Of a stretch of 64,000 bases of DNA, positions 4,885 through 46,141 are shown in pieces. A program made the position numbers and the translations under genes. How positions within the stretch are numbered: position 1 is the first letter of the stretch; every line of letters begins with the position of its first letter. Source of the DNA: Actinoalloteichus fjordicus (GTDB lineage: Bacteria > Actinomycetota > Actinomycetes > Mycobacteriales > Pseudonocardiaceae); the NCBI RefSeq assembly GCF_001941625.1, contig NZ_CP016076.1:2914001-2978000 (forward strand). The letters run 5' to 3'. The notes beneath the pieces are model-generated. The model did no database searches. It was not told where the DNA came from and saw nothing but the letters and a program-made list of their open reading frames with translations.

Positions 4885-7800
4885 GTGGCCGCACGCTCTT
4901 CGAACAATTCGGCGACGTCTCCTGCGGAGCGTTACGCCGCTGCCCGCTCACGTCAGGCCCATCCGAGGCTGACGGAGTTCCTCAGCGAGATCGCCTTCGA
5001 GCTCGATCCGTTTCAACTCGCCTCCTGCCGGGCGCTGGAGGTGGGACACGCCGTCCTGGTCTGCGCGCCGACCGGCGCGGGCAAGACCGTCGTCGGCGAG
5101 TTCGCCGTCCATCTCGCACTCGCCGAGGGAAGGAAGTGCTTCTACACGACGCCCATCAAGGCGCTCTCCAATCAGAAGTACGCGGACTTGTGTGCCCGAC
5201 ACGGCGCCGAGAACGTCGGGCTGCTCACGGGCGACGCGGCAGTCAACGGCCACGCCCCCGTGGTCGTGATGACCACCGAGGTCCTGCGGAACATGCTCTA
5301 CGCGGGCTCGTCCAGCCTCGACGGGCTCGGCTACGTCGTGATGGACGAGGTCCACTACCTCGCGGATCGATTCCGGGGCGCGGTGTGGGAGGAGGTCATC
5401 CTCCATCTGCCGGAGAGTGTCCGCCTGGTGTCGCTGTCGGCGACGGTCAGCAACGCCGAGGAGTTCGGCGAATGGCTGGTGGCCGTCCGAGGCGACACCT
5501 CCGTGGTGGTCGACGAGCATCGACCGGTGCCGCTCTGGCAGCACATGATGGTCGGCAGCCGCACGATGGACCTGTTCGGCGGGGAGTCCGCAGGCGAGCT
5601 GAAGCTCAACCCGAACCTGTTGCGTCAGGTGCAGAACACCGAGCGCAGCGAGCCTGCCTGGCGGGGGCCGCGTCGGGACCGGGGGCCGCGTGACCGACGG
5701 AACGGCGCTTCGCATCCCGCCCGGTTCCGGCCGCCCGCGCGCACCGACGTCATCGAGCGACTCGGCGCCGCCGGGCTGCTGCCCGCGATCGTCTTCATCT
5801 TCAGTCGAGCGGGCTGCGACGCCGCCGTCACCCAGTGCGTTCGCGGCGGGCTGCGGCTGACCACCGAGGCCGAGGCCGAGGAGATTCGTCGCGTCATCGA
5901 CCTCAAGACCGTCGACCTGCCGGACGGCGACCTCGGTGTCCTGGGTTACTGGGAATGGCGAGAGGCGTTGGAGCGCGGGGTCGCCGCCCACCACGCGGGA
6001 ATGCTGCCCGCCTTCAAGGAGACGGTGGAGGAGCTGTTCGTGCGCGGGCTGGTCCGGGCCGTCTTCGCCACGGAGACGCTGGCACTGGGCATCAACATGC
6101 CCGCGCGGACCGTGGTGCTGGAGAAGCTGGTCAAGTACAACGGCGAGGCACACGTCGACCTGACGCCGGGGGAGTACACCCAGCTCACCGGCAGGGCGGG
6201 CAGGCGCGGCATCGACGTCGAGGGTCACGCGGTGGTCATGTGGCAGCCCGGCGTCGATCCGCGGCAGGTCGCCGGGCTGGCCTCGACCAGGACCTATCCG
6301 CTGCGCTCCTCCTTCCGGCCCGGCTACAACATGGCCGTGAACCTGGTGCACCGGGTCGGCGTCCCGGCGGCGCGCGACCTGTTGGAGCAGTCCTTCGCCC
6401 AGTTCCAGGCCGACCGCTCGGTGGTCGGCCTGTCTCGCCGGATCGAACGCAACGAGGAGGCCTTGGCGGGCTATCGGGAGTCCGCGAGCTGTCACCTCGG
6501 CGACTTCGAGGAGTACATGGAGCTGCGACGTCGCGTCTCCGCCAGGGAGAAGGTCCTGGCCAAGCAGAACACCGCAGGCAGGCGCGCCGATGCTGCGGCC
6601 TCGCTGGAGCGGTTGCGCAAGGGCGACGTCATCGCCGTGCCCGCTGGCAGGCGGTCCGGGCTGGCCGTGGTCGTCGATCCCGGCCTGGACCCGCTCAACG
6701 AGCCGCGCCCGCTGGTGGTCACCGAGGATCGATGGGCGGGCAGGCTGTCGGTGGTCGACTTCCCGACGCCGGTGGAGGCGCTGGGCCGGATGCGGCTGCC
6801 CAAGGACGTCGAGGTGCGCTCGCCCCGGTCGAGGCGGGACCTGGCCTCGGCGCTGCGCGACACCGGGATCGCGGTGCCAGCCCGGGGCAGGAGCCGGCCG
6901 GGTGCCCCGCACGAGGACGGTGAGCTGAACACCCTGCGTCGTGCACTGCGCGCCCACCCCTGCCATGGCTGTGACTCGCGAGAGGACCACGCGAGATGGG
7001 CCGAGCGACACCATCGTCTCGCGGGTGAGAACGACCAGCTCCGCCGGAAGGTGGCGGGCACCACCCACTCGCTGGTGCGCACCTTCGACCGGATCAGGGC
7101 GCTGCTGCGGGCGAGGGGTTATCTGGCTCCTGCACCCGCCGTCCCCGGCGGTCCGGACGCCGAGGGCGCCACCGCTGCCGTGAACGCGGACGACGCCGCG
7201 AGCGCGGGAGCGACGGGAACCGACGGCGATACTGCGGAGACCGGTGTGGCCGAGGAGACCGCCGGTTCCGCTGCGGAGGCGGAGCAGGCCGAGGCCGAGC
7301 CTGCCGAGGTTTCGAGGGACGCCGTGTCCGCCGTCGGCCCCGTGTCCGCCGTCGGCGCGGCACCCGGCGGCAAGGGCACGGTCGTGGTCGTCGATCAGGA
7401 GACGATCAGCGAACACGGCAGGCGGCTGGCCCGCATCTACAGCGAGTCCGACCTGCTGGCGGCCGAATGTCTGCGCCACGGCGTATGGCGAGGCCTCGGA
7501 CCGGCCGAGCTGGCCTCGGTGGTCTCCGCGCTGGTCTTCGAGTCGCGTCGCGACACCGGCCCGGTCGCGGCCCTGCCGGAGGGACCGGTCACCGACGCAC
7601 TGGCGGAGACCATCCGCATCTGGGCCGATCTGGAGGACGACGAGCGGCGGCACCGGCTGGACCGCACCCGCGAACCGGACGCGGGCTTCGCCTGGCCCGT
7701 GTACCGGTGGGCGCGCGGCGAGTCGCTGGAGAAGGTGCTGACGGCGGCGGAGAGCACGGGCCATGATCTGTCGGCTGGCGACTTCGTGCGCTGGTGTCGT

Positions 7801-7923
7801 CAGGTCGTGGACCTGCTCGACCAGCTTCGTGACGTGGTCGGCACCCGGGATCCGGTGGGTGCCGCCGCAGCCAAGGCGGTCGTCGCCCTGCGTCGGGGAG
7901 TCGTCGCGATGAGCACGTCGTGA
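4885..7923 (+). CDS. helY: Ski2/Mtr4-like DExH-box RNA helicase HelY
   Basis: A 1012-residue superfamily 2 helicase of the Ski2/Mtr4 type, the conserved neighbour of the pafBC-tatAC block in actinobacteria, presumed to act in RNA processing or decay. Motif I is APTGAGKT (61-68), motif Ia TTPIKALSNQKY, motif II DEVH (154-157), motif III SAT and motif VI QLTGRAGRRGID. A helicase C domain is followed by an arch-like domain and a C-terminal DSHCT-like region ending near residue 1000. Residues about 752-830 are an Ala/Glu/Gly low-complexity linker between the arch and DSHCT parts. GTG 4885 gives the family-like N-terminus; no strong ribosome binding site is seen. Confidence 0.93.
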   Translation: MAARSSNNSATSPAERYAAARSRQAHPRLTEFLSEIAFELDPFQLASCRALEVGHAVLVCAPTGAGKTVVGEFAVHLALAEGRKCFYTTPIKALSNQKYADLCARHGAENVGLLTGDAAVNGHAPVVVMTTEVLRNMLYAGSSSLDGLGYVVMDEVHYLADRFRGAVWEEVILHLPESVRLVSLSATVSNAEEFGEWLVAVRGDTSVVVDEHRPVPLWQHMMVGSRTMDLFGGESAGELKLNPNLLRQVQNTERSEPAWRGPRRDRGPRDRRNGASHPARFRPPARTDVIERLGAAGLLPAIVFIFSRAGCDAAVTQCVRGGLRLTTEAEAEEIRRVIDLKTVDLPDGDLGVLGYWEWREALERGVAAHHAGMLPAFKETVEELFVRGLVRAVFATETLALGINMPARTVVLEKLVKYNGEAHVDLTPGEYTQLTGRAGRRGIDVEGHAVVMWQPGVDPRQVAGLASTRTYPLRSSFRPGYNMAVNLVHRVGVPAARDLLEQSFAQFQADRSVVGLSRRIERNEEALAGYRESASCHLGDFEEYMELRRRVSAREKVLAKQNTAGRRADAAASLERLRKGDVIAVPAGRRSGLAVVVDPGLDPLNEPRPLVVTEDRWAGRLSVVDFPTPVEALGRMRLPKDVEVRSPRSRRDLASALRDTGIAVPARGRSRPGAPHEDGELNTLRRALRAHPCHGCDSREDHARWAERHHRLAGENDQLRRKVAGTTHSLVRTFDRIRALLRARGYLAPAPAVPGGPDAEGATAAVNADDAASAGATGTDGDTAETGVAEETAGSAAEAEQAEAEPAEVSRDAVSAVGPVSAVGAAPGGKGTVVVVDQETISEHGRRLARIYSESDLLAAECLRHGVWRGLGPAELASVVSALVFESRRDTGPVAALPEGPVTDALAETIRIWADLEDDERRHRLDRTREPDAGFAWPVYRWARGESLEKVLTAAESTGHDLSAGDFVRWCRQVVDLLDQLRDVVGTRDPVGAAAAKAVVALRRGVVAMSTS

Positions 7924-8092
7924 GAACGACTCCCGGTCACAGCACTACTACGGCATCGACTGTTCGGTGTGGTCAGCGACAGAGACTATGGTTTGATCGC
8001 GCGGATCGGTGACGAAGACTTCGCTCTACGAGACTCCGCACCAGATCCCTCGAACAGCCACGCGCATTCCAGCGTCGACCCGGAGGCGAACC

Positions 8093-8731
8093 ATGACCAG
8101 CCCGTACGGACCGTCCGGGGGGAACGACCCGCAGCAGCAGTGGGGACAGCAGCCTTACGGGGGCTACAACCCCGGCACTCCCACGGGCGGGACGCCGGAG
8201 CAGGGCGCCTACGGCGGCTACCCGCAGCAGGGCTACGGGCAGCCGCCTGCGGGCCAGGGGTACGGCCAGCCGCCTGCTGGTCAGGAGTACGGCGGCTATC
8301 CTCAGACCGGCGGTTACCCGCAGCAGGGCTACCCGCAGCAGGGCGGCTACCCGCAGCAGGGTTACGGCCAGCCCGGCGGGTACGGCTACCCGCAGGGTCC
8401 GCCGCCGCAGCCGCAGAAGACCGCACTGCCCTGGGTGATCACCGGCATCGTCGTGGTGCTCCTCGGTGCACTGGCCGTCCTCGGCTTCGTCTGGCCGGGC
8501 TTCTTCAACACCAGGGTGTTCGACGAGAACGCGGTCGCCGAGGCGGTCACCCGGATCGTCGAGGACGACTACGGCGCAGGTGAGGTCACCGGGGTGAGCT
8601 GCCCGGCGGGCCAGCCGCTGGAGGCGGGCACCTCCTTCGAGTGCACCGCGACGGTCGACGGCGAGGCGTCCCGCATCACCATCTCCGTCCAGACCGACGA
8701 CGGCGAGTACCAGGTGGGCCAGCCCTCCTGA
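8093..8731 (+). CDS. DUF4333 domain membrane protein with Gln/Gly/Tyr/Pro-rich N-terminus
   Basis: A 212-residue protein starting at ATG 8093. Residues 1-105 are disordered and built of repeated [13 protein letters not shown] units. A single transmembrane helix ([20 protein letters not shown]) follows, then an extracytoplasmic domain with two cysteines ([20 protein letters not shown]) typical of DUF4333, where they probably form a disulphide. Family members are actinobacterial cell-envelope proteins of unknown role. A longer frame to 8009 exists, but its N-terminus has no family match. Confidence 0.82.
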
Positions 8732-8795
8732 CCTGGTCGGGCGCGCAGTGAAAGGCATTCGCATTTCCGCGCGCCCACCAGGCATCATCGTCGAC

Positions 8796-10010
8796 GTGCC
8801 CGACTACCAGATCAGAACACTCGACGACGCCGACATCGCCGCAGCGGACGCCCTCTTCCTGGGGACGCTCCACCTTCCCCCCACCGCCGCCGAACAACTC
8901 GACAACCTGCGGCCCAGCTATGTGCCGGGACGAGCGCTGGGCGCCTTCGACGGCGACGAACTGGTCGGCACCGCGATGTCCTATCCCTCCGCCCTGGCCG
9001 TGCCCGGCGGCGCGGTGCCGAGGATGGGCGCCGTCAGCAGGATCGGCGTGCGTGCCGATCACACCAGACGCGGCATCCTCACGGCCCTGCAACGTCGCCA
9101 GTTGAGCAGCCTCGTGGAGCAGGGCGATGTCATCGCCACCCTGCGTGCCAGCGAGGCGACCATCTACGGGCGGTTCGGCTACGGCGTCGCCGAGCGGGTG
9201 CGATCGATCACGGTGAACCCGTCGACGGCCGAGATCCGGCCCGATCTTCCGCGAGTCGGCCGGACCCGGCTGATCGACGCCGCCGAGGCCGAGACCCTGC
9301 TGCCCGCGCTCTACGAGCAGATCGGTCTGCGCCGACCGGGCATGATGACTCGCCCGGCCGGGCTGTGGGGCATCTGGCGGGTGCGGGAGACCAAGCTCGA
9401 CGGTCTCGCCCGCACGGCGGTGCACACCAACGCCGACGGCGTCGCCGACGGCTTCGTCACCTACCGGGCCGTGAAGTCGGGCGGCTTTCGCGCCGAACTG
9501 CGCGTCGAGGACCTGCACGGCGCGACGCCGACGGCGATCCGGGAACTCTGGCGCTTCCTGATCGGCCTCGACCTGACCGCCGTGATCAAGGCAGGCTCGC
9601 AGCCGCTGGACGACCCGCTGGAGTGGTCACTCGTCGATCGCCGGGCCGTGGGCGTCGACGGCGTGACCGACTCGACCTGGCTGCGCCTGCTCGACGTGTC
9701 CGCCGCCTTGGCGGCCCGGTCGTACGGCGACGCGGAGCCCGTGGTGATCGAGCTGGTCGACGACCTGCTGCCCGCGAACACCGGCCGATACCGGGTCGGC
9801 GCCGACGGCGCCCGCCGTACCGAGGCCACCGCAGATCTCGTGATGGGCGTGGCCGCGCTCGGCGCCCTCTATCTGGGCGACGTCGCGCCGTCGACGCTCG
9901 CCGAGAACGGCTTGATCACCTGGTCCGGCGAACCCGGCCAGGCGGCACTGGGCCGGGCCGACCGACTGTTCCGCACCCCGACGCCCCCGTACTGCGGCAC
10001 CTTCTTCTGA
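8796..10010 (+). CDS. Eis-like GNAT N-acetyltransferase
   Basis: A protein of about 404 residues with the three-part Eis architecture: an N-terminal GNAT domain (acetyl-CoA loop region RIGVRADHTRRGILTALQRR), a second GNAT-like domain, and a C-terminal sterol-carrier-like domain ending in two aromatic residues (CGTFF), the free carboxylate used in Eis catalysis. ASEATIYGRFGYG is a strong family signature. Eis enzymes acetylate amines including aminoglycosides and protein lysines; the substrate here is unknown. GTG 8796 is preferred to GTG 8748 because the upstream 16 residues have no counterpart in the family. Confidence 0.88.
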   Translation: MPDYQIRTLDDADIAAADALFLGTLHLPPTAAEQLDNLRPSYVPGRALGAFDGDELVGTAMSYPSALAVPGGAVPRMGAVSRIGVRADHTRRGILTALQRRQLSSLVEQGDVIATLRASEATIYGRFGYGVAERVRSITVNPSTAEIRPDLPRVGRTRLIDAAEAETLLPALYEQIGLRRPGMMTRPAGLWGIWRVRETKLDGLARTAVHTNADGVADGFVTYRAVKSGGFRAELRVEDLHGATPTAIRELWRFLIGLDLTAVIKAGSQPLDDPLEWSLVDRRAVGVDGVTDSTWLRLLDVSAALAARSYGDAEPVVIELVDDLLPANTGRYRVGADGARRTEATADLVMGVAALGALYLGDVAPSTLAENGLITWSGEPGQAALGRADRLFRTPTPPYCGTFF

Positions 10011-32267: not shown

Positions 32268-32982
32268 CTGCGGGTCGCCGCGCGCTGCTCCTTGCCGAGC
32301 TGACGCGCCGGGCTCGCCTGCCGCCGAAAAGCGGTCCGGGCAAGGGCGTGTGGTGGGGGGTCCGGCGGCGGCGCGCGGTACGGCGTCGGCGGGCGGGGCT
32401 CCTGCTGCGTCGGAGGATTCTCGACTCCGGCGAGAGTCTGGCCAGACCGGAGAATCGTGCCGGAGTGATCTGGATCACGTGGTAATCCAGTGCTCTGGAC
32501 GGTGATGAATCCCCAGATCAGGAAGTATCGGCCCCGCGCATGCGGGGATGGCTCGCCGAGTCGGAGCTGCGACCAGTCACCCCCGATATCGGCCTCGCGC
32601 CTGCGGGGACGGCTCGATGTCCCGGATCGCGCCCGCCTCACCATCCATCGACCCCGCTCACGCCGGGACGGCTCCGGTTGGGCCGACGCCACCGCCGAGT
32701 GCCTATCCGCTCCCGCCCCGGACGCCGAACCTGCAGCACGCCGTCATCGGCTCGCCGACCGGTCTTGCGCCGTTCGGTGGGCGAACGCCCCCCGACGGGC
32801 CGCTATCGGTGCGGTCCCCGCCGCCGTACGGTCGAGACGGCGGCAGGAGCATCTCGCCCGGGTGCTTCCCTCGGCAGGCGATCGAGCCGCGACTCGGTCG
32901 TCCGGCGGCGTCCGGCGATCCCGCCCCGCACGCCGAGACGCGCCGCCCGTGGGTCGCCGTCGACGACATCGGGAGACGAGCG
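32268..32982. other. Long intergenic region holding the CRISPR relic
   Basis: 715 bases. The first 250 contain an inverted repeat CTGGAT-N9-ATCCAG (32470-32490) with a central CACGTG, about 37 bases before the first CRISPR repeat, in the leader position. The CRISPR relic occupies 32527-32675. The remaining 300 bases up to the esterase start have no gene. Confidence 0.55.
32527..32675 (+). CRISPR. Degenerate type I-E-like CRISPR array (three repeats, two spacers)
   Basis: Three 29-base repeats at 32527-32555, 32588-32616 and 32647-32675, separated by unrelated spacers of 32 and 30 bases. The first repeat has the palindromic core CCCCGCGCATGCGGGG followed by ATGGCTCG, a pattern close to actinobacterial and E. 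coli type I-E repeats. The second (CCTCGCGCCTGCGGGG) and third (CCCCGCTCACGCCGGG) carry accumulating mismatches. Decay increases rightward, as expected for the trailer end, so the leader would be on the left. The window contains no cas genes. Confidence 0.78.
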
Positions 32983-37279: not shown

Positions 37280-38143
37280 TCAGCTCCGCCGGGCCGACGA
37301 CGGCAGCGGCGTGTCCCAGGCGGCTCGCCGGGCGGCTCGGCGCAGCACCGCCAGAACCGCAGGACCCACCAGCAGGATCGCCACCAGGTTGGTGATCGCC
37401 CGTCCGGTGTCCCAGCCCAGTGTGGAGGTGGTCAGAGTGAAGAGCACGAAGCGGTGCAGGTTCTCGGTGATCGGATCGCCCGGCACGAAGGAGAGCTGGG
37501 TGTCGGTTCCCGCGAGCAGCGGCCAGGACCACATGTTCATCAGGAAGCCGAAGACATAGGCGGCGAGGACTCCGTAGCAGGCGAGCATCGCGATCTCGGC
37601 CCGGCCCCGAGGCCGGGCGGGCAGGAGCCCGGCGCCCAGTCCCAGCAAGGAGGAGGAGAGCATCTGAAACGGCAGCCACGGGCCGACGCCCGCGGTGAGC
37701 AGGGCCGAGGCGAACAGCGACGTCGATCCGAGCAGGAAGCCGAAACCGGGGCCGAAGACGCGGCCCGCCAGCACCAGCAGGAAGAACACCGTCTCGATGC
37801 CCGCCGTGCCCGCGCCGAGTGGGCGCAGCCCCGCGTTGACCGCCGACAGCACGCCGAGCAGCGCCAGCGACTTGGCGTCCATGCCGGAGTCCGACATCTC
37901 GGCGAGCACGATCGCCAGCAGCAACGGCAGCAGCACCACGAAGACCAGCGGAGCATTGGCCGCGCGAGCCGTCGGATCGGGGGACTCCGAGGCGAACAGC
38001 GGCCAGAGGAACATCGCCAGCCCCGCCGCCGAGGCCAGCGTGAGCACCACCGCGCGGCGCGGCGTCACGTGCACGACCCGCACCCGGCTTCGGGGCGTCT
38101 CGGTCGTGCCCTCCGCCGCCGGGATGCCTGCGCCCTCGGTCAT
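37280..38143 (-). CDS. ECF transporter substrate-binding (S) component, probable cobalamin
   Basis: A 287-residue integral membrane protein with about six hydrophobic segments (AVVLTLASAAGLAMFLWPLF, PLVFVVLLPLLLAIVLAEMS, LLGVLSAVNAGLRPLGAGTA, ETVFFLLVLAGRVFGPGFGF, QMLSSSLLGLGAGLLPARP and ITNLVAILLVGPAVLAVL). The NAGLRPLGAG and GRVFGPGFGFLLGS motifs are typical of actinobacterial S components. It is last in the T-A-S operon with ATGA overlap to the ATPase. The upstream cobalamin riboswitch makes vitamin B12 (CbrT-like) the likely substrate. Confidence 0.87.
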   Translation of the reverse strand: MTEGAGIPAAEGTTETPRSRVRVVHVTPRRAVVLTLASAAGLAMFLWPLFASESPDPTARAANAPLVFVVLLPLLLAIVLAEMSDSGMDAKSLALLGVLSAVNAGLRPLGAGTAGIETVFFLLVLAGRVFGPGFGFLLGSTSLFASALLTAGVGPWLPFQMLSSSLLGLGAGLLPARPRGRAEIAMLACYGVLAAYVFGFLMNMWSWPLLAGTDTQLSFVPGDPITENLHRFVLFTLTTSTLGWDTGRAITNLVAILLVGPAVLAVLRRAARRAAWDTPLPSSARRS

Positions 38144-39756
38144 CGCGGCACCGCCGCATCGGCCAGCGCCTGCCGTACCTGATCCACCGTCAGCCAGGAC
38201 TGCGGGGCCAGCACCTTCGCCACCTGCGGCGCGAACGACGGCGAGGAGACCACGACGTCCGTGGTGGTGCCGTCGGCGACGACCTCGCCGATCGCGAGCA
38301 CCACCACCCGGTCGGCGACGGTCGCGACGAACTCCACGTCGTGCGTGGCGATCACCACCGAACGGCCCTGCGCGGCCAGATCCGCGACGAGGGCGCCGAA
38401 TGCCCGCTTCGCACGGTAGTCCAGGCCCCGGGTCGGCTCATCGAGGAGCACGACCGGCGGCGCGGCGACGAGCTGAATCGCCAGAACCAGCGCCAGTCGC
38501 TGCCCCTCGGACAGATCACGCGGATGACCGTGCGGGTCGACCTCGTCGATCAACCGCCCCAGCAGCGTCACGCAGGTTCCCGGCGGCGCCGCCGACTCCC
38601 GATCGGCCTGCGCGCACTCCTGGGCGACCGTCTCCAGATACAGCAGGTCGGCCGCCGTCTGCGGCACCAGGCCGACGAGAGCCCTGGCCCGATGCGCGGG
38701 CTCGGCCGCCGGATCGAGTCCGCCGGTGAGCACAGTGCCGCCCGCGCGGCGGCCCGAACCCTGCAGAGCCCACAGCAGTGAGGACTTGCCGGAGCCGTTT
38801 CGGCCCATCAGCGCGGTGACCTGACCGCCGTGCAGGTCGAGGTTCACCGCCCGGACCGCCACGACGTCGCCGTGCCGCACCACCACGTCGTGTGCCGACA
38901 GCAGCGGCGACTCCGTCGCCGCCCTCTCCGGCGCGGGCGGGGCGTGGTCGGTCAGCCGGGCGCGCAGCTCAGGCGCCCGTCTGCGGGCGTCGCGCACCGA
39001 CAACGGCAGCGGCGTCCAGCCCGCCAGCCTGCCCAGCTCCACCACCGGCGGCGCCAGCGTCGCGTCCGCCAGCACCTCGGCGGGCCGCCCGTCGACCACG
39101 CCGCCGTCGCCGGGCAGGTAGACCATGCGGTCGGCGTACTGCACGACCCGTTCCAGCCGGTGCTCGGCGATCACCACCGTGACCCCGAGATCGTGCACGA
39201 GCCGGGTGACCGAGGCCAGCACCTCTTCGGCGGCCGTCGGGTCCAGCGCCGAGGTCGGCTCGTCGAGCACCAGCACCCGAGGATGCACGGTGAGCACCGA
39301 GCCGATCGCCACCCGCTGCTGCTGCCCACCAGACAGGGAACGCAGCGACCGGTCCCGCAGCTCCGCGATTCCGAGCAGGTCCAGCGTCTCCTCGACGCGC
39401 TTGCGCATCACCTCGGCGGGAATCGCGAGCTGCTCCATGCCGTAGGCCAGCTCCTCCTCCACCGTGTCGGTGACGAAACCTGCCAGCGGGTCCTGGCCGA
39501 CGACTCCGACCAGGTCGGCGAGTTCACGGGGTGGATTCGTCCTCGTGTCCCGTCCCGCCACCGTGACTCGGCCGCGCAGCGTCCCGCCGGTGAAGTGCGG
39601 CACCCGGCCGTTGATCGCACCGAGCAGCGTCGACTTGCCCGAGCCGGTGTGACCGACCACGAGGCACAGCTCGCCCTCCTCGATCTCCAGGTCGACACCG
39701 GACAGGACGGGGGCGGACTCGCCATAGTGGACCGCCACCTCCTCGAAGCGGATCAT
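38140..39756 (-). CDS. ECF transporter energizing ATPase, two fused ABC domains
   Basis: A 538-residue fusion of EcfA and EcfA'. Domain 1 (1-250): Walker A VGHTGSGKST, signature LSGGQQQR, Walker B VLVLDEPTSALD. Domain 2 (285-538): Walker A MGRNGSGKSS, signature LSEGQRLAL, Walker B VVLLDEPTRGLD. A ~35-residue linker joins them. ATG 39756 overlaps the T-component stop by four bases, and the stop overlaps the S-component start. The fusion enforces one of each ATPase per transporter. Confidence 0.92.
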   Translation of the reverse strand: MIRFEEVAVHYGESAPVLSGVDLEIEEGELCLVVGHTGSGKSTLLGAINGRVPHFTGGTLRGRVTVAGRDTRTNPPRELADLVGVVGQDPLAGFVTDTVEEELAYGMEQLAIPAEVMRKRVEETLDLLGIAELRDRSLRSLSGGQQQRVAIGSVLTVHPRVLVLDEPTSALDPTAAEEVLASVTRLVHDLGVTVVIAEHRLERVVQYADRMVYLPGDGGVVDGRPAEVLADATLAPPVVELGRLAGWTPLPLSVRDARRRAPELRARLTDHAPPAPERAATESPLLSAHDVVVRHGDVVAVRAVNLDLHGGQVTALMGRNGSGKSSLLWALQGSGRRAGGTVLTGGLDPAAEPAHRARALVGLVPQTAADLLYLETVAQECAQADRESAAPPGTCVTLLGRLIDEVDPHGHPRDLSEGQRLALVLAIQLVAAPPVVLLDEPTRGLDYRAKRAFGALVADLAAQGRSVVIATHDVEFVATVADRVVVLAIGEVVADGTTTDVVVSSPSFAPQVAKVLAPQSWLTVDQVRQALADAAVPR

Positions 39757-40859
39757 GAGCGGACCTCCGGCGGCGGGGCGAACCACGCGGGGGCGACTCC
39801 CGCGAGGATGCCGAGCACCGGCGGCAGCGTCACCGTCGGCCAGCTCAGCGGGCTGAGTGAGGGATAGAGGTTCGCCGGGTCGACCCCGGCGGTCACGGTG
39901 AGCACGAGGGCGGCGGTCAGGCCCGACAGCACCACGAGCGTCTCCGGCAGGCGCCACCGGTCGGGCCGGTAGACGCTGCGGCGGATTCGCCTGCCTGCGA
40001 CGAGGAAGCCCGCACCGGCGACGAGCAGGCCCGCGACCGCCATCGGCAGCCCGAAGGCGTGCCGGGTGCCGTCCAACAGCCCGTACACGCCGACACACAC
40101 GCCGAGCAGGCCCGCGATCACCAGCACCCCGGTCAGCAGACGAGTCCGCCTCGGCGTGTCGCCGAACCGGCCGTACCCTCGGGAGTCCATCGCCGAGGCC
40201 AGGGCGAGCGACCGGTCCATGGCATCGGCCAGTACCGGGACCACGATGCCGCGCAACGCCCGGAGCCCGCGTTGTCTGCCGCCGCGCAGCCGCCGGGCCC
40301 GGCGGACCCGCAGGACGCTCTCCATGAGCTGCGGCGCCACGGAGAGGGCCACCACCACGGCCGTGCTGATCTGGTAGAGCGCCGCAGGCACCGCCTTGAG
40401 CATCCGGCGCGGATCGGCCAGCGAGTTCGCCGCGCCGAGACAGATCAGCATCGTCGCCAGGCGCAGCCCGTCGTAGAGCCCGCCGAGCAGCTCCTCGGCG
40501 CTCACCGGGCCGAGCAGCCGGATGCCCGCCGCCGCCTCCGGGAGCGTGATCTCCGGCAGCACGAACAGGATGTGCTCGCCCGCACCGCCCCCGAAGATCA
40601 TCCGCCACAACACGCGCATGACGACGATGAACACCCCGAGGTACACGTACATCCGGAACGTGGCGGCCCACGGCGCCCGGCCGCGACGCCGGACCACGAC
40701 GTACCCCGCCACCACCAGGATCAGCGACAACAGCAGCGGATTGGTCGTGCGGCCCGCTGCGGCCGCCAGGGCCAGTGCCCATAACCACCAGGCACCGGGA
40801 TGCAGGGCTCTCGGGAGCCGCGTCGAGGCCCGGAGCACCGATGCGGTCACGCCGCCCAC
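39753..40859 (-). CDS. ECF transporter transmembrane (T) component, CbiQ family
   Basis: A 368-residue membrane protein. It has the two coupling signatures that contact the ATPases: RRARRLRGG near residue 190 and SRGYGRFG near residue 232. Hydrophobic segments include WWLWALALAAAAGRT, LLLSLILVVAGYVVV, MYVYLGVFIVVMRVLWRMIF and three C-terminal helices, the last ending in APAWFAPPPEV. First gene of the operon. GTG 40859 is the longest start; GTG 40850 (VTASVLRAS) is also possible. The leader upstream contains the cobalamin riboswitch. Confidence 0.9.
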   Translation of the reverse strand: MGGVTASVLRASTRLPRALHPGAWWLWALALAAAAGRTTNPLLLSLILVVAGYVVVRRRGRAPWAATFRMYVYLGVFIVVMRVLWRMIFGGGAGEHILFVLPEITLPEAAAGIRLLGPVSAEELLGGLYDGLRLATMLICLGAANSLADPRRMLKAVPAALYQISTAVVVALSVAPQLMESVLRVRRARRLRGGRQRGLRALRGIVVPVLADAMDRSLALASAMDSRGYGRFGDTPRRTRLLTGVLVIAGLLGVCVGVYGLLDGTRHAFGLPMAVAGLLVAGAGFLVAGRRIRRSVYRPDRWRLPETLVVLSGLTAALVLTVTAGVDPANLYPSLSPLSWPTVTLPPVLGILAGVAPAWFAPPPEVRS

Positions 40860-41743
40860 GTCCCGGAGGCACGGGGCTCGCAGGGCCGCTCGGCAGGAGG
40901 GCTGTCATGCCGGTCTCGGGGCCGCCGACGGGCCTGCGCGGCGCGGAGCGAGGGCGTCTCGACCACGATCCGGTGTCCGGCGGCGGTCTGCGGCCTGCGC
41001 AGCGTGGTACCCGACATGCCTCGATGCCTTCCCCGAGCGGGTCGAGAGAGGCATCCGACCAAGAGCAGGCGCCGCCGACGTCGGCGTGCGTGCTCGAATC
41101 GGACTCCACCTGCGGACCACGACAGTGTGAACGAGCCCTCGTCCCCGGACGGGCATTCCGGCTCGTCGTGCCTCGGCACGAACCACGGCTGCGGGTCAGC
41201 GCCGGACTTCGACCGGCTTCCCCCGCCGGGGACGTCTGAAGTTGTCACGACCGGTCAGCGGTCGTCGAGAGACTACCGAGGAGATTAACTCACTCGAGTG
41301 GTCCTGGGTCGGCGCACGCGGCAGACCGTTCAGCCGTGCCGGCTCGAGCCACCAAGTCGTTCCTCCGCCCTGCGCCGGGCCCGAGACACCCGGCTCGATG
41401 TGCTCGACTCGGCGCGGTCGGCGGATCGGCGCAGGCGGCGGTACGCAGTCGAACCCGGTGACGCACGGCGAAGGGCGCCGCATCGAGCGCTCGTCGCCGA
41501 TGGGCAGGACGCGGTCGACCCTCGGCCCGCCGGATGCATCGTCGGAGACGGGACTGCTGTGCCGAGTGGTCCGCCACCCACGGAGATCATTACGATGAGT
41601 AGTCGACGTCCGTCACTAAGGGTGGTAGATCCGCGAAGTTCAGGTGACAGGGCTCGTGATGTCGCGACGGCAGCCACGAGATCGACCGGCGGTGTGCCAG
41701 CTACCGCAGGCCCGTGTCCAGGACGAAAGACGAGGCAGCCGCA
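40860..41743. other. Divergent intergenic region with riboswitch
   Basis: 884 bases between the ECF operon and the ATP-grasp gene. The riboswitch core occupies 41140-41234 on the minus strand; about 280 bases separate it from the T-component start, long enough for an expression platform. Upstream of the core is a separate 7-bp hairpin (ACGACCG / CGGTCGT, about 41245-41265). The right half presumably holds the ATP-grasp promoter. Confidence 0.6.
41140..41234 (-). promoter_or_regulatory. Cobalamin riboswitch (compact form)
   Basis: Read on the minus strand, the region contains the B12-box-like series GGGGAAGCCGGTCGAAGTCC, GGCGCTGACCCGCAGCCG and, further on, GAGCCGGAATGCCCG, matching the order and spacing of conserved cobalamin-riboswitch segments. 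A 9-bp helix (CGTCCCCGG, + strand 41140-41148, with its complement at 41226-41234) closes the core. Inside it, TCGTGCC-GA-GGCACGA and CGGC/GCCG hairpins sit where P6 and P5 are expected. At ~95 bases it is shorter than the classical AdoCbl form, closer to the compact class II type. It precedes the ECF T-A-S operon in the correct orientation. Confidence 0.78.
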
Positions 41744-43161: not shown

Positions 43162-44445
43162 TCAGCAGGACCGCCCGGCCTGCTCGACGGCGGCGGCGAT
43201 CGCGGAGCAGGGGTCGTGCGCCTCGTATTCGGCCTGGAGCCGTCGGGCCCGGTCGCGGAGGAGCGGATCGTCCAGGATGCTCTCGACGGCCTTGCGGATG
43301 TCCGCCTCGTCCGGGTCCCCGGTGCCGAGGTTGACGGCCGCCCCTGCCCAGGCGGCCTTGGCACCGACCTCGATCTTGTCCTCGGTGTCGCCCGCCAGCA
43401 CCATCGGGACCCCGTGACGCAGTGCCTGCTGGACGCCGCCGTAGCCGCCGTTGCTGACCAGCACGTCGACGTGGGGGAGCATGGCGTCGAAGGGGATGAA
43501 CTCGGCGACTCGTGCATTGGCGGGCAGTCCGGCGGGCACGACGTCGCGGCCGGTGGTGACGACGACCAACGCATCGAGATCGGCCAGGGCGCGCAGCGTG
43601 GGCTCGATCAGCCTGCTGAGGTCGTCGTTGGCGATGGTGCCCTGTGAGACGACGATCAGTCGACCCGCGGACGTCACCTCGTCCCACCAGTCCGGGAGTT
43701 CGACGGCGTCGCCGGTGTCCGGGGGCAGTGCTCCCACGTAGCGCAGGCGCGGCGGCGCATCGCTGCGGGGGTAGTCCATGCTCTCGATGCTGAGCTGAAG
43801 GAAGCGGTCCGGCACGCCGACGAGGCCCCGCGACAGCAGCGGTGGCGGCTCGGTGCTCCCCAGCCGGGTCAACGCGGCGGCCAGCAGGCGATGCGAGCCC
43901 GCCCGCTCGGCCGCCTCGGCGTGCTCGGTGAGCCTGCGACCTCGGGTCCGGCCCTCCTCGGAGCCGTCCGGGGCCAGCCCGGTGCCGAAAGGCGGATGAT
44001 CGGCACTGTTCAGCGGCAGCGGCATCACGCCGACGCCGATGACGGCTGCCGGGCGGACGCCCGCCGCGCCGTGCAGGACCGGCCAGGCTCCCAGGAACAT
44101 CGTGTCGTGCAGGAGCACCGTCGGTGCCGCGTCGTCCTCGGCGAGGAGCTCCTGGAGCGCCGTGTGCTGCGCGGCCATCGGCGCGATGAACAGCTGCTGG
44201 TTGTCGTACTCCAGCCGGGCCGGTCCGGCCGGTATCGAGTTCCGGTCGGGGAACTGATCGGGACGCAGATCCGCCTCGGCGGGCAGCGCCGCGAACCGGG
44301 CGCCGGTCCGCTCCACGGCGGCACGGAAGGCACTGCCGGTCAGGAACGTGACCTCGTGTCCGCGTTCGACGAGATCCGCCGCGATCACCCGCAACGGCCG
44401 CACGTGTCCGAAGAACGGGACTGCGGCGATCAACACCCTGGTCAT
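43162..44445 (-). CDS. GT1-family glycosyltransferase (macrolide-type), copy 1
   Basis: A 427-residue UDP/NDP-sugar glycosyltransferase of the MGT/UGT type (GT-B fold). The N-terminus VLIAAVPFFGHVRPLRVIAA carries the catalytic His of the GHV/GHxxP motif. The donor-binding half has VVVTTGRDV, AEFIPFDAMLPHVDVLVSNG and GYGGVQQALRHGVPMVLAGD. It is about 60-65% identical by eye to the next gene, including the block SMDYPRSDAPP. The acceptor is unknown. ATG 44445 is chosen. It converges on the ATP-grasp gene. Confidence 0.9.
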   Translation of the reverse strand: MTRVLIAAVPFFGHVRPLRVIAADLVERGHEVTFLTGSAFRAAVERTGARFAALPAEADLRPDQFPDRNSIPAGPARLEYDNQQLFIAPMAAQHTALQELLAEDDAAPTVLLHDTMFLGAWPVLHGAAGVRPAAVIGVGVMPLPLNSADHPPFGTGLAPDGSEEGRTRGRRLTEHAEAAERAGSHRLLAAALTRLGSTEPPPLLSRGLVGVPDRFLQLSIESMDYPRSDAPPRLRYVGALPPDTGDAVELPDWWDEVTSAGRLIVVSQGTIANDDLSRLIEPTLRALADLDALVVVTTGRDVVPAGLPANARVAEFIPFDAMLPHVDVLVSNGGYGGVQQALRHGVPMVLAGDTEDKIEVGAKAAWAGAAVNLGTGDPDEADIRKAVESILDDPLLRDRARRLQAEYEAHDPCSAIAAAVEQAGRSC

Positions 44446-44678
44446 CGTGCGGCCTGCTCCTTGAGGTGGTCGATCTGTCCTCGGCGAGCAACAGGCTATT
44501 CCGTCTGTCGTCGGGGGAGCACCGCCGACGACCCGCACTGCCCCTCGGGCGCAGGCGGCACGCAAGCGCCTACGCCAGAGCCGTGGGCGGCGCCGTGGGG
44601 GAGCGGGGCAGGCGCCCGTGGCGAGGGCCGCTGCCGTGCCGGACCGCGTGCAGACCTGCTGCGGGAGTCCTGCGTGAT

Positions 44679-45971
44679 TCACGCCTCGCGGCGAGCCAAC
44701 TCCTCGACGGCGGCGGCGATCGCCTCGTAGGGGTCGTGACTCCGGCACTCGGCCGCAAGCTCCTCCGTCCGCTTCGTCCGGCTCGGATCGGTCAGGATCG
44801 TCTCGACGGCCTTGCGGACGTCGGCCTCGTGCGGATCTCCGGTGCCGAGGTTGATCGCGGCTCCCGCCCACTCCGCCAGGGCGCCGACCTCTGCCTTGTC
44901 GTCGGTGTCGCCCGCCAGCACCATCGGGACGCCGTGCCAGAGCGCCCGGTGGACGCCGCCGTAGCCGCCGTTGCTGACCAGGACGTCGACGTGGGGCAGC
45001 AGGAGGTCGAAGGGGACGTACTCGGCAACCCGCGCGTTGGCGGGCAGTGCGGCGGGCACCGCGTCGCTGCCGGTGGTCACGATGACCAGCGCGTCGAGAT
45101 CGGCAAGTGCGCGCAGCGTCGGTTCGATCAGACGGCCGAGGTCCGAGTTGGCCAGGGTTCCCTGCGTCACGAGGACCACCCGAGACGCACTCGTCAGCTC
45201 ACTCCACCAGCCGGGCAGTTCGACGTCATCGGGTTCACCAGGCGGCAGCGTGCCCACGTGCCGTAGGTGCGGCGGCGCGTCGCTGCGGGGGTAGTCCATG
45301 CTCTCGATGGTGAGTTGAAGGAACAGGTCGGGGATCTCGACCAGCCCCTGGTAGATCAGCGGCGGCTCCTCCGTCGTCCCCAGCTCCGCCAGCGTCGTGA
45401 CGAGGTCGCGATGCGATCCCGCCCGCAGCGCCGAGGCCGCCACCTCGTTGAGGAAGGTGTTGCGGGCTCGGCCGTCCGCCGAGCTGTCCGGGGGCAGGCG
45501 CACTCCCCAGGGAGCGTGATCGATGCTGTTGATCGGGACCGGGATGACGCCGATGCCGATGACCCCGGCGGGCCGGCGGCCGGGCGCCCCGAGCCGGACC
45601 GGCCAGACACCCACGAACGTGGTCTCGTGCACCACGACCACCGGCTCCGGCGGGTCCTCGGCGAGCAGTTCTTGAACGGCCGCGTGTTGCGCCGGCAGGC
45701 CCTGGATGGTCAGATCGATGTCGAATTCGATCTGTTCCTGCCCGGCGCGCAGGGCCTCCCGTTCCGGGAACAGCGCGTTCAACGAACCGGCCAGGTCCGC
45801 CTGGCCGGGAAGCGGTGCGAATCGGGCGCCCGTGCGCTCGACTGATTCGCGGAAGATGCTGCCGGTGAGGAACGTGACGTCGTGTCCGCGTTTGACGAGA
45901 TTCCGCGCGATCTCTCGCATGGGCGTCACATGCCCGTGCACCGGTACTGCCGCTATCAACACCTTCGTCAC
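44679..45971 (-). CDS. GT1-family glycosyltransferase (macrolide-type), copy 2
   Basis: A 430-residue paralogue of the preceding protein. N-terminus VLIAAVPVHGHVTPMREIAR; donor site region VIVTTGSDAV, AEYVPFDLLLPHVDVLVSNG, and GYGGVHRALWHGVPMVLAGD. Both copies end in a DPxxAIAAAVEE/Q segment. GTG 45971 aligns with copy 1's start. The 233-base gap between the copies and same orientation point to a tandem duplication. A 16-bp palindrome lies 171 bases upstream of this gene. No other natural-product genes are seen here. Confidence 0.9.
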   Translation of the reverse strand: MTKVLIAAVPVHGHVTPMREIARNLVKRGHDVTFLTGSIFRESVERTGARFAPLPGQADLAGSLNALFPEREALRAGQEQIEFDIDLTIQGLPAQHAAVQELLAEDPPEPVVVVHETTFVGVWPVRLGAPGRRPAGVIGIGVIPVPINSIDHAPWGVRLPPDSSADGRARNTFLNEVAASALRAGSHRDLVTTLAELGTTEEPPLIYQGLVEIPDLFLQLTIESMDYPRSDAPPHLRHVGTLPPGEPDDVELPGWWSELTSASRVVLVTQGTLANSDLGRLIEPTLRALADLDALVIVTTGSDAVPAALPANARVAEYVPFDLLLPHVDVLVSNGGYGGVHRALWHGVPMVLAGDTDDKAEVGALAEWAGAAINLGTGDPHEADVRKAVETILTDPSRTKRTEELAAECRSHDPYEAIAAAVEELARREA

Positions 45972-46141
45972 TGTGCGGTCTGCTCCTCGCTCACGGGTGC
46001 GGCGCGTTCTGCCTGCGACGAACTGAAACGGCCTGGTCGCGCCGATGCGCTGATCGTTTATACCGTATCGCCGCGCGGCGTCGGCGAGTGCCATAGCCCG
46101 ATCCCGGCCTGCCCGGAATGGCACCACCGCTGCCCGAGCGG

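Follow-up and report, generated by a model that had tools for sequence, protein, structure and literature searches.

The window, the whole 64-kb stretch of DNA analysed here, carries on its minus strand a compact cobalamin aptamer, a long leader and the three genes of an ECF transporter. The T component (CbiQ-like, 39753-40850) matches PF02361 with 36.4 bits against a cut-off of 25 when scanned from position 40859; the A component (38140-39756), which has two ABC domains in one chain, matches PF00005 in two stretches with 167.6 bits; and the S component (37280-38143), predicted to be corrinoid-specific, matches PF12822 with 35.0 bits against a cut-off of 30.7. All of these matches are over their cut-offs, in agreement with the T-A-S operon that an earlier sequence-only reading of this DNA had placed downstream of the aptamer. 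Among NCBIfam models, those for ECF_ATPase rank highest for the A component, under their cut-off.

The aptamer core runs from P3 to P3 at 41140-41234 on the minus strand, as located by the Rfam model RF00174, by a covariance model of our own (R1) and by covariation, with its sub-elements read from the sequence. Reading from 41234 to 41140 gives the conserved B12 segments in the order proposed previously. P3 (41226-41234/41140-41148; CGUCCCCGG/CCGGGGACG) pairs at nine of nine positions, so that the enclosing 9-bp helix is indeed perfect, and the two internal hairpins had also been seen correctly: P5 (GCCGG/CCGGC, 41213-41217/41201-41205) has 5 bp and a 7-nt loop, L5 (41206-41212), and the short P6 arm is 25 nt long, its base closing at 41158-41160. 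P4 lies at 41222-41225/41150-41153, and J6/3 (AAUG) at 41154-41157. RF00174 matches 41131-41274 on the minus strand with 41.6 bits (curated gathering score 31.5, E = 4.4e-7), which is the sole Rfam match at gathering level within the window and upholds the identification as a cobalamin riboswitch. With respect to the two kinds of covariance model suggested at that time, the classical one is over its cut-off on the expected strand and the class II model, RF01689, is not reached. The full RF00174 match extends over outer helices with many non-standard pairs there, and the 95-nt core is the better-supported unit. GC-rich helices arise easily in GC-rich DNA, and P3 taken alone would be unconvincing; a chance similarity with no riboswitch behind it is nevertheless extremely improbable, being contradicted by a score above the curated cut-off, by the sequence cores, by covariation and by the placement of the element.

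R1 was built from nine short relatives, the window among them, aligned with the P3-P6 structure. It scores the window aptamer, itself among its source sequences, at 107.7 bits. Searches with R1 yield 67 matches (E ≤ 1) spread over 52 sources, and 98 matches (E ≤ 0.1) spread over 80 loci of named genomes. Across the latter 98 matches, all from other genomes and in an alignment fitted to R1, 17 of the 21 pairs change on both sides. Paired cells amount to 90.6%, compared with 68.4% after shuffling and at most 44.8% with the partner slid; cells changed on both sides number 423, compared with 159 in shuffled data; and the covariation score is 0.462, against 0.124 for shuffles and at most 0.116 with the partner slid. 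P3 occurs across the matches as GC, CG, UA, AU and both GU orders. An alignment fitted to R1 favours pairing, but this spread of pair types is hard to explain that way. Helices P3, P4, P5 and P6 are kept by covariation in this model-fitted alignment, as expected of a member of RF00174.

Counts on loci from the family of the window's genome (given below) used 64 of the 67 R1 matches, leaving out the window and two matches under 17 bits. For the named loci, 81 of the 98 matches were counted. The remaining 17 score below 48 bits, and none of them sits upstream of a T gene otherwise without a match. The pooled set of 146 entries (the window, the 64 and the 81) contains a small number of matches that are class I-like or partial, among them those in L055, L085, L086, L161 and L170. 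In eight chosen loci, six of 11 R1 matches reach the RF00174 gathering score, so Rfam probably undercounts the compact subtype. R1 matches under that score were seen in L094, L098, L160 and L164. A conserved RCAAY (often ACAACT) is found just upstream of P3 in R1 matches, at about 41241-41248 in the window; it is present in 85 of the 146 entries within -25 to +12 of the match start (shuffle mean 16), and it may represent either a promoter -10 element or a part of the RNA.

The window's genome has four RF00174 matches over the cut-off, two long (L001 and L002; 246 and 253 nt) and two short (144 nt in the window and 157 nt in L003), and the earlier description of the window element as a short form is thus accurate. 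The long, class I-like copies precede reading frames whose translations we recognised by eye as ribonucleotide-reductase-like and metE-like. They share with the window element the P3-P6 core, GGGAA, the P5 hairpin, the CCGC core, the 3' box and a score over the gathering level, but the window element lacks the long P6 arm and carries the 3' motif GGAAUGCCCGUC, common to both short copies, in place of the GAAGACCUGCC of the long ones. Membership of class I (AdoCbl) is ruled out by the missing long P6-arm extension (P7/P8 onwards); absence of a P8-P12 extension is given as a criterion for exclusion from class I in the accessible text of PMC11260477. The median length of the P6 arm is 23 and 24 nt in the two sets of R1 matches. 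RF01482 stays under its cut-off for the window. The AdoCbl-II model RF01689 does not list the window at E ≤ 10 (150 of 168 candidates scored), which sets the aptamer apart from that class, and it gives the sister copy L003 27.4 of 36.5 bits. A compact core is shared with class II riboswitches (env8, Cbl-IIa; M. tuberculosis ppe2, a IIb variant), and the J6/3 letters AAUG of the window are presumably the same as those of env8. Overall, the aptamer is a compact, class II-like member of the cobalamin riboswitch family. In Cbl-IIa, which is selective for MeCbl/HyCbl, adenines A20 and A68 (J3/4 and J6/3) exclude the adenosyl group, according to the accessible part of PMC7689651.

A fifth RF00174 match in the window's genome, under the cut-off, precedes a Peripla_BP_2 protein. 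A cobalamin-riboswitch-like element at L055:8200-9392 (RF01482, 39.4 of 50 bits) lies before a Peripla_BP_2 (BtuF-like) protein, which may be another uptake system for corrinoids within the same genome.

Between the aptamer and T lies a candidate upstream open reading frame (uORF) of 56 codons (40847-41017, minus strand), the TGA of which overlaps the T start as GTGA. Because of this stop-start overlap we place the T start at GTG 40850 and not at 40859, and the gap between aptamer and T is therefore 289 nt. The long gap to the first start had been recognised before, at about 280 bases; its exact value and the start codon are revised here, and it turns out to contain a recurring hairpin in addition to the uORF. 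In all three genus members the uORFs (56, 49 and 35 codons) end in GTGA, for which chance is about 1 in 27 with random frames; the uORF peptide is not conserved. A uORF with a stop-start overlap also belongs to the ppe2 riboswitch of M. tuberculosis, as described in the accessible text of PMC11260477.

The recurring hairpin, CUG-UCGUGGUCCG-CAG (41110-41125, minus strand), is P13-like. Its general form, NNN-UCG-N7-NNN just 3' of P3 and thus in P13-like placement, was found in 107 of 132 distinct aptamers and in 121 of the 146 pooled entries (shuffle mean 35, maximum 52), with stems CTG/CAG (44), CCG/CGG (41) and CTG/CGG (12). This form was read off the sequences before the single-base-shuffle test, and the source sequences of R1 were picked by a pattern near these genes, so the R1 and P13 tests are not independent; the whole-genome R1 search and the Rfam scans lend more independent support than these tests at the loci. 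In env8, P13 docks with L5, as the accessible text of PMC10907184 has it. L5 and L13 do not covary over the 146 pooled entries (mean best run 3.44, compared with 3.41 when permuted), so the kissing loop proposed for the window rests on analogy.

A second hairpin, GAUGCC...GGCAUC (41023-41055, minus strand), forms in the predicted fold, whose z of -1.35 is not significant; with z values of -1.35 and -0.66, the leader fold is no more stable than shuffles. The 3' side of this hairpin holds a purine-rich SD-like stretch ahead of the uORF in the window's genus, and one of its pairs changes from U-A to C-G in one of the three genus members in the alignment; we infer a regulatory role for it. Scans of 40800-41400 found neither a terminator-like site nor a sigma-70 promoter. 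Control is probably translational and of the OFF type, with the P13 hairpin and a uORF coupled to T as its predicted parts.

Orthologues of S are present in 48 of 200 genomes sampled from Pseudonocardiaceae, the window's genome included, and up to 12.9 kb was fetched around each of 47 family loci. Most of these neighbourhoods encode a secreted protein, termed D, often beside a toroid gene. The D gene lies upstream of T in 42 of the 47 loci, D or toroid gene in 44, and a riboswitch on the same strand as T in 43. Relatives have the order D-toroid-D-T-A-S or shorter versions of it behind one riboswitch, and some behind two. L036 and L037, from the window's genus, have the riboswitch and lack D at the locus; in L083 and L084 the toroid is present and D was not found; and in L038 the contig ends, with neither D nor riboswitch. 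R1 has no match upstream of T in four family loci (L038, L047, L048 and L051), and RF00174 finds nothing in the last three.

Scanning named genomes with the S alignment gave at least 579 relatives among at least 593 candidate stretches. The best 80 of these relatives form the named loci, which overlap the family set by at least ten records and span Amycolatopsis, Streptomyces, Micromonospora, Kribbella, Nocardioides, Actinomadura, Propionibacteriaceae, Acidimicrobiia bins and others. T is present in 73 of the best 80, and in 61 of these 73 a riboswitch lies upstream of it on the same strand (60 at 49 bits or more, and L170 with a partial match only, of 25 bits); the D gene occurs in 65 and the toroid gene in 45 of the 73. 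Among the 12 named loci without an R1 match upstream of T, five are on contigs that end within 570 bp of T, three (L145, L153 and L172) are short (1.2-2.3 kb) and four (L108, L120, L136 and L139) have room. L108, L120 and L139, from Amycolatopsis, show neither an R1 nor an RF00174 match in about 6 kb of room; L136 has one long RF00174 match on the other strand, downstream of S. A D, toroid or T domain lies within 1 kb downstream and on the same strand for 80 of the 81 R1 matches, a count in which mainly strand and spacing are informative because the loci were chosen around S. In four loci (L110, L114, L116 and L125) a pair of riboswitch matches lies on opposite strands, with about 240 bp between their starts. 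One of the pair faces the cluster; the other, weaker at 46-48 bits, points towards a separate toroid gene.

D was assigned to no Pfam family at E 0.05 in four proteins scanned, and 28 members gave two single hits at E ~0.2; its sequence found no convincing relative among PDB sequences, only antibody noise. The name DUF4430, which we had presumed for D from its motif, is not supported by Pfam, and it is the structural match that carries the fold claim. The AlphaFold model of the D beta-domain alone (L094, 47 sequences) has a pLDDT of 91. Foldseek against the PDB ranks transcobalamin first to fourth with this model, at E values from 6e-3 to 2e-2; by itself it gives no PDB match at E 0.001, the best being 6.1e-3. 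VIA-align, used as a second look at Foldseek's own candidates, places rows 1-15 at Z 9.6-10.6 and the first unrelated structure, row 16, at 5.7; fourteen of the 15 rows are transcobalamin, haptocorrin or intrinsic factor, and one is a bacterial putative metal-binding protein (3u7z). Judged by this predicted structure, D has the transcobalamin beta-domain fold.

Toroid and D are joined in one open frame in L119 (a Nocardioidaceae bin) and in L134. Counted from ATG 4589, with other starts possible, the L119 frame has 568 residues and covers both toroid and D, as well as a proline-rich linker and a C-terminus that is hydrophobic. The model of this fused protein (pLDDT 80) comes from a flawed alignment, in which MAFFT matched toroid ends to the beta-domain. 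Its best Foldseek match in the PDB is human intrinsic factor at E 2.0e-6, with a TM of only 0.34-0.40 and an rmsd of 18, and VIA-align shows no transcobalamin among the 50 rows listed for it, with other helical-barrel proteins instead. As modelled, toroid plus D looks like the transcobalamin architecture, and we infer that the D and toroid proteins bind B12. The three toroid proteins scanned have a weak, under-cut-off likeness to terpene-cyclase domains.

Secreted transcobalamin-like SLBB proteins, toroids, CbiO/CbiQ-like genes and missing B12 biosynthesis enzymes were linked by Burroughs et al. in 2007, in the accessible text of PMC1796856, and all these traits are shared by the actinomycete system. 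That text places the clade mainly in low-GC Gram-positives, along with planctomycetes and a smaller number of euryarchaea, and does not contain the word "riboswitch", whereas the system of the window is in Actinomycetota and combines a riboswitch and an S component with a cluster that is split.

The sequence of S alone names no substrate, since it scores just under the cut-off of the riboflavin S family PF07155 (25.5 against 26.7) and far under that of its best NCBIfam match, the folate S family TIGR04518 (26.8 against 60). Searched with the S profile, the PDB sequences, a set assumed to contain the CbrT and BtuM chains, give no match at E ≤ 0.1, so that no sequence relation to these two was found. 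ECF-CbrT and BtuM provide precedents for cobalamin uptake by an ECF-type or S-type protein, as proposed for the window (PMC5997447 and PMC6072759), but the window system has its own T and a fused double A, and predicted extracellular binding proteins belong to the cluster. Cobalamin or another corrinoid as the predicted substrate, formerly suggested by the riboswitch alone, is now backed by the association with transcobalamin-fold proteins under the same type of riboswitch. An importer that stands under a cobalamin riboswitch and carries cobalt, alpha-ribazole/DMB or an incomplete corrinoid appears unlikely. According to the accessible parts of the respective papers, cobalt transporters occur in cobalamin regulons (PMC3766115), and a cobalamin riboswitch lies upstream of Symbiobacterium cblT (PMC9600662), described as an alpha-ribazole transporter (PMC8123684); the lack of a match between S and any solved structure points in the same direction. 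However, the two-domain transcobalamin-fold proteins predicted in the same cluster would fit a whole corrinoid, and S is of the PF12822 type.

In each of the three whole genomes of the genus, two R1 matches stand out, at 74.7-107.7 bits against 41.8 for the next best; of the 5,835-8,935 candidates per genome from a loose first look, 150 were scored. One precedes T-A-S and the other D-toroid-D; in the window's genome the latter, the other short riboswitch (L003/L054), is followed by a first D gene, then by a gene for an alpha/alpha-toroid-like protein that includes a collagen-like stretch, and then by another D gene. The simplest history is a split of the operon after which both halves had a riboswitch copy, whether retained or newly gained. 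The riboswitch at T-A-S could also be a relic that no longer regulates these genes, the 289-nt gap and the lost upstream genes being scars of the split. The rearranged cluster and a leader that is not unusually stable agree with such a relic, but we regard it as quite improbable: the RF00174 score is over the cut-off, P3 pairing is kept in the genus member L037 via a change on both sides, and the sequence directly downstream of the aptamer has been conserved across all three genus members. All three genus genomes have a CobS match and one strong CobQ-type GATase match, and none of the three has a match to CobN or CbiC, families matched in 5 and 7 of 14 control genomes. Corrinoid salvage is therefore likely and de novo ring synthesis unlikely, in which case uptake would matter.

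Taken with the gene neighbourhoods, these results make it likely that a compact class II-like cobalamin riboswitch lowers the expression of a predicted corrinoid (cobalamin) ECF importer when cobalamin is sufficient. By analogy with env8, bound cobalamin would make L5 dock with the P13 loop, and the docked fold would block translation of the uORF. Through the overlap of the uORF stop with the T start, output of T-A-S would drop as well. Under cobalamin shortage the cell would produce T-A-S and, alongside it, the surface toroid and beta-domain proteins, whose genes lie elsewhere in the window's genome under the second riboswitch copy; these proteins may bind corrinoid outside the cell and hand it over to the S component.

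Riboswitch, importer and B12-carrier look-alikes recur in many related soil bacteria, which suggests that B12 scavenging under the control of such a switch is common to them. A broader reading, to which we give an even chance, is an Actinomycetota-wide, riboswitch-controlled counterpart of animal B12 transport: two-domain surface proteins resembling transcobalamin and intrinsic factor, mostly as separate subunits and in some lineages as one chain, would pass corrinoid to a dedicated ECF importer. The compact riboswitch subtype, partly missed by the Rfam cut-off, may then sense methyl- or hydroxocobalamin, and in the window's genus the cluster would have been split, each half with a riboswitch, the transporter half gaining a uORF that relays the switch to T. 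Among the papers listed from the open-licence PMC literature, we recognised none that connects all three elements, cobalamin riboswitch, transcobalamin-fold proteins and ECF transporter, for Actinomycetota. Compared with those papers, three things may be new: the riboswitch-bearing system of actinomycetes, the test by structure and the splitting of the cluster, subscription papers lying outside this scope and prior work being possible.

The proposal provides a testable corrinoid specificity for a large family of ECF S components without a named substrate (at least 579 relatives) and for the toroid proteins. It brings together, as one system, a B12 riboswitch, an ECF importer and bacterial proteins of the transcobalamin fold, and the idea from 2007 that animal B12 carriers derive from bacterial scavenging proteins would therefore become open to direct biochemistry. 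The split cluster with its two riboswitches would be a clean example of an RNA holding a regulon together after an operon break.

Two further features of the window were noted. Three degenerate 28-nt repeats with 59-61 nt spacing at 32527-32674 resemble an eroded short CRISPR array. On the minus strand at 43162-46127, two adjoining genes have matches to EryCIII-like_C and UDPGT glycosyltransferase families.
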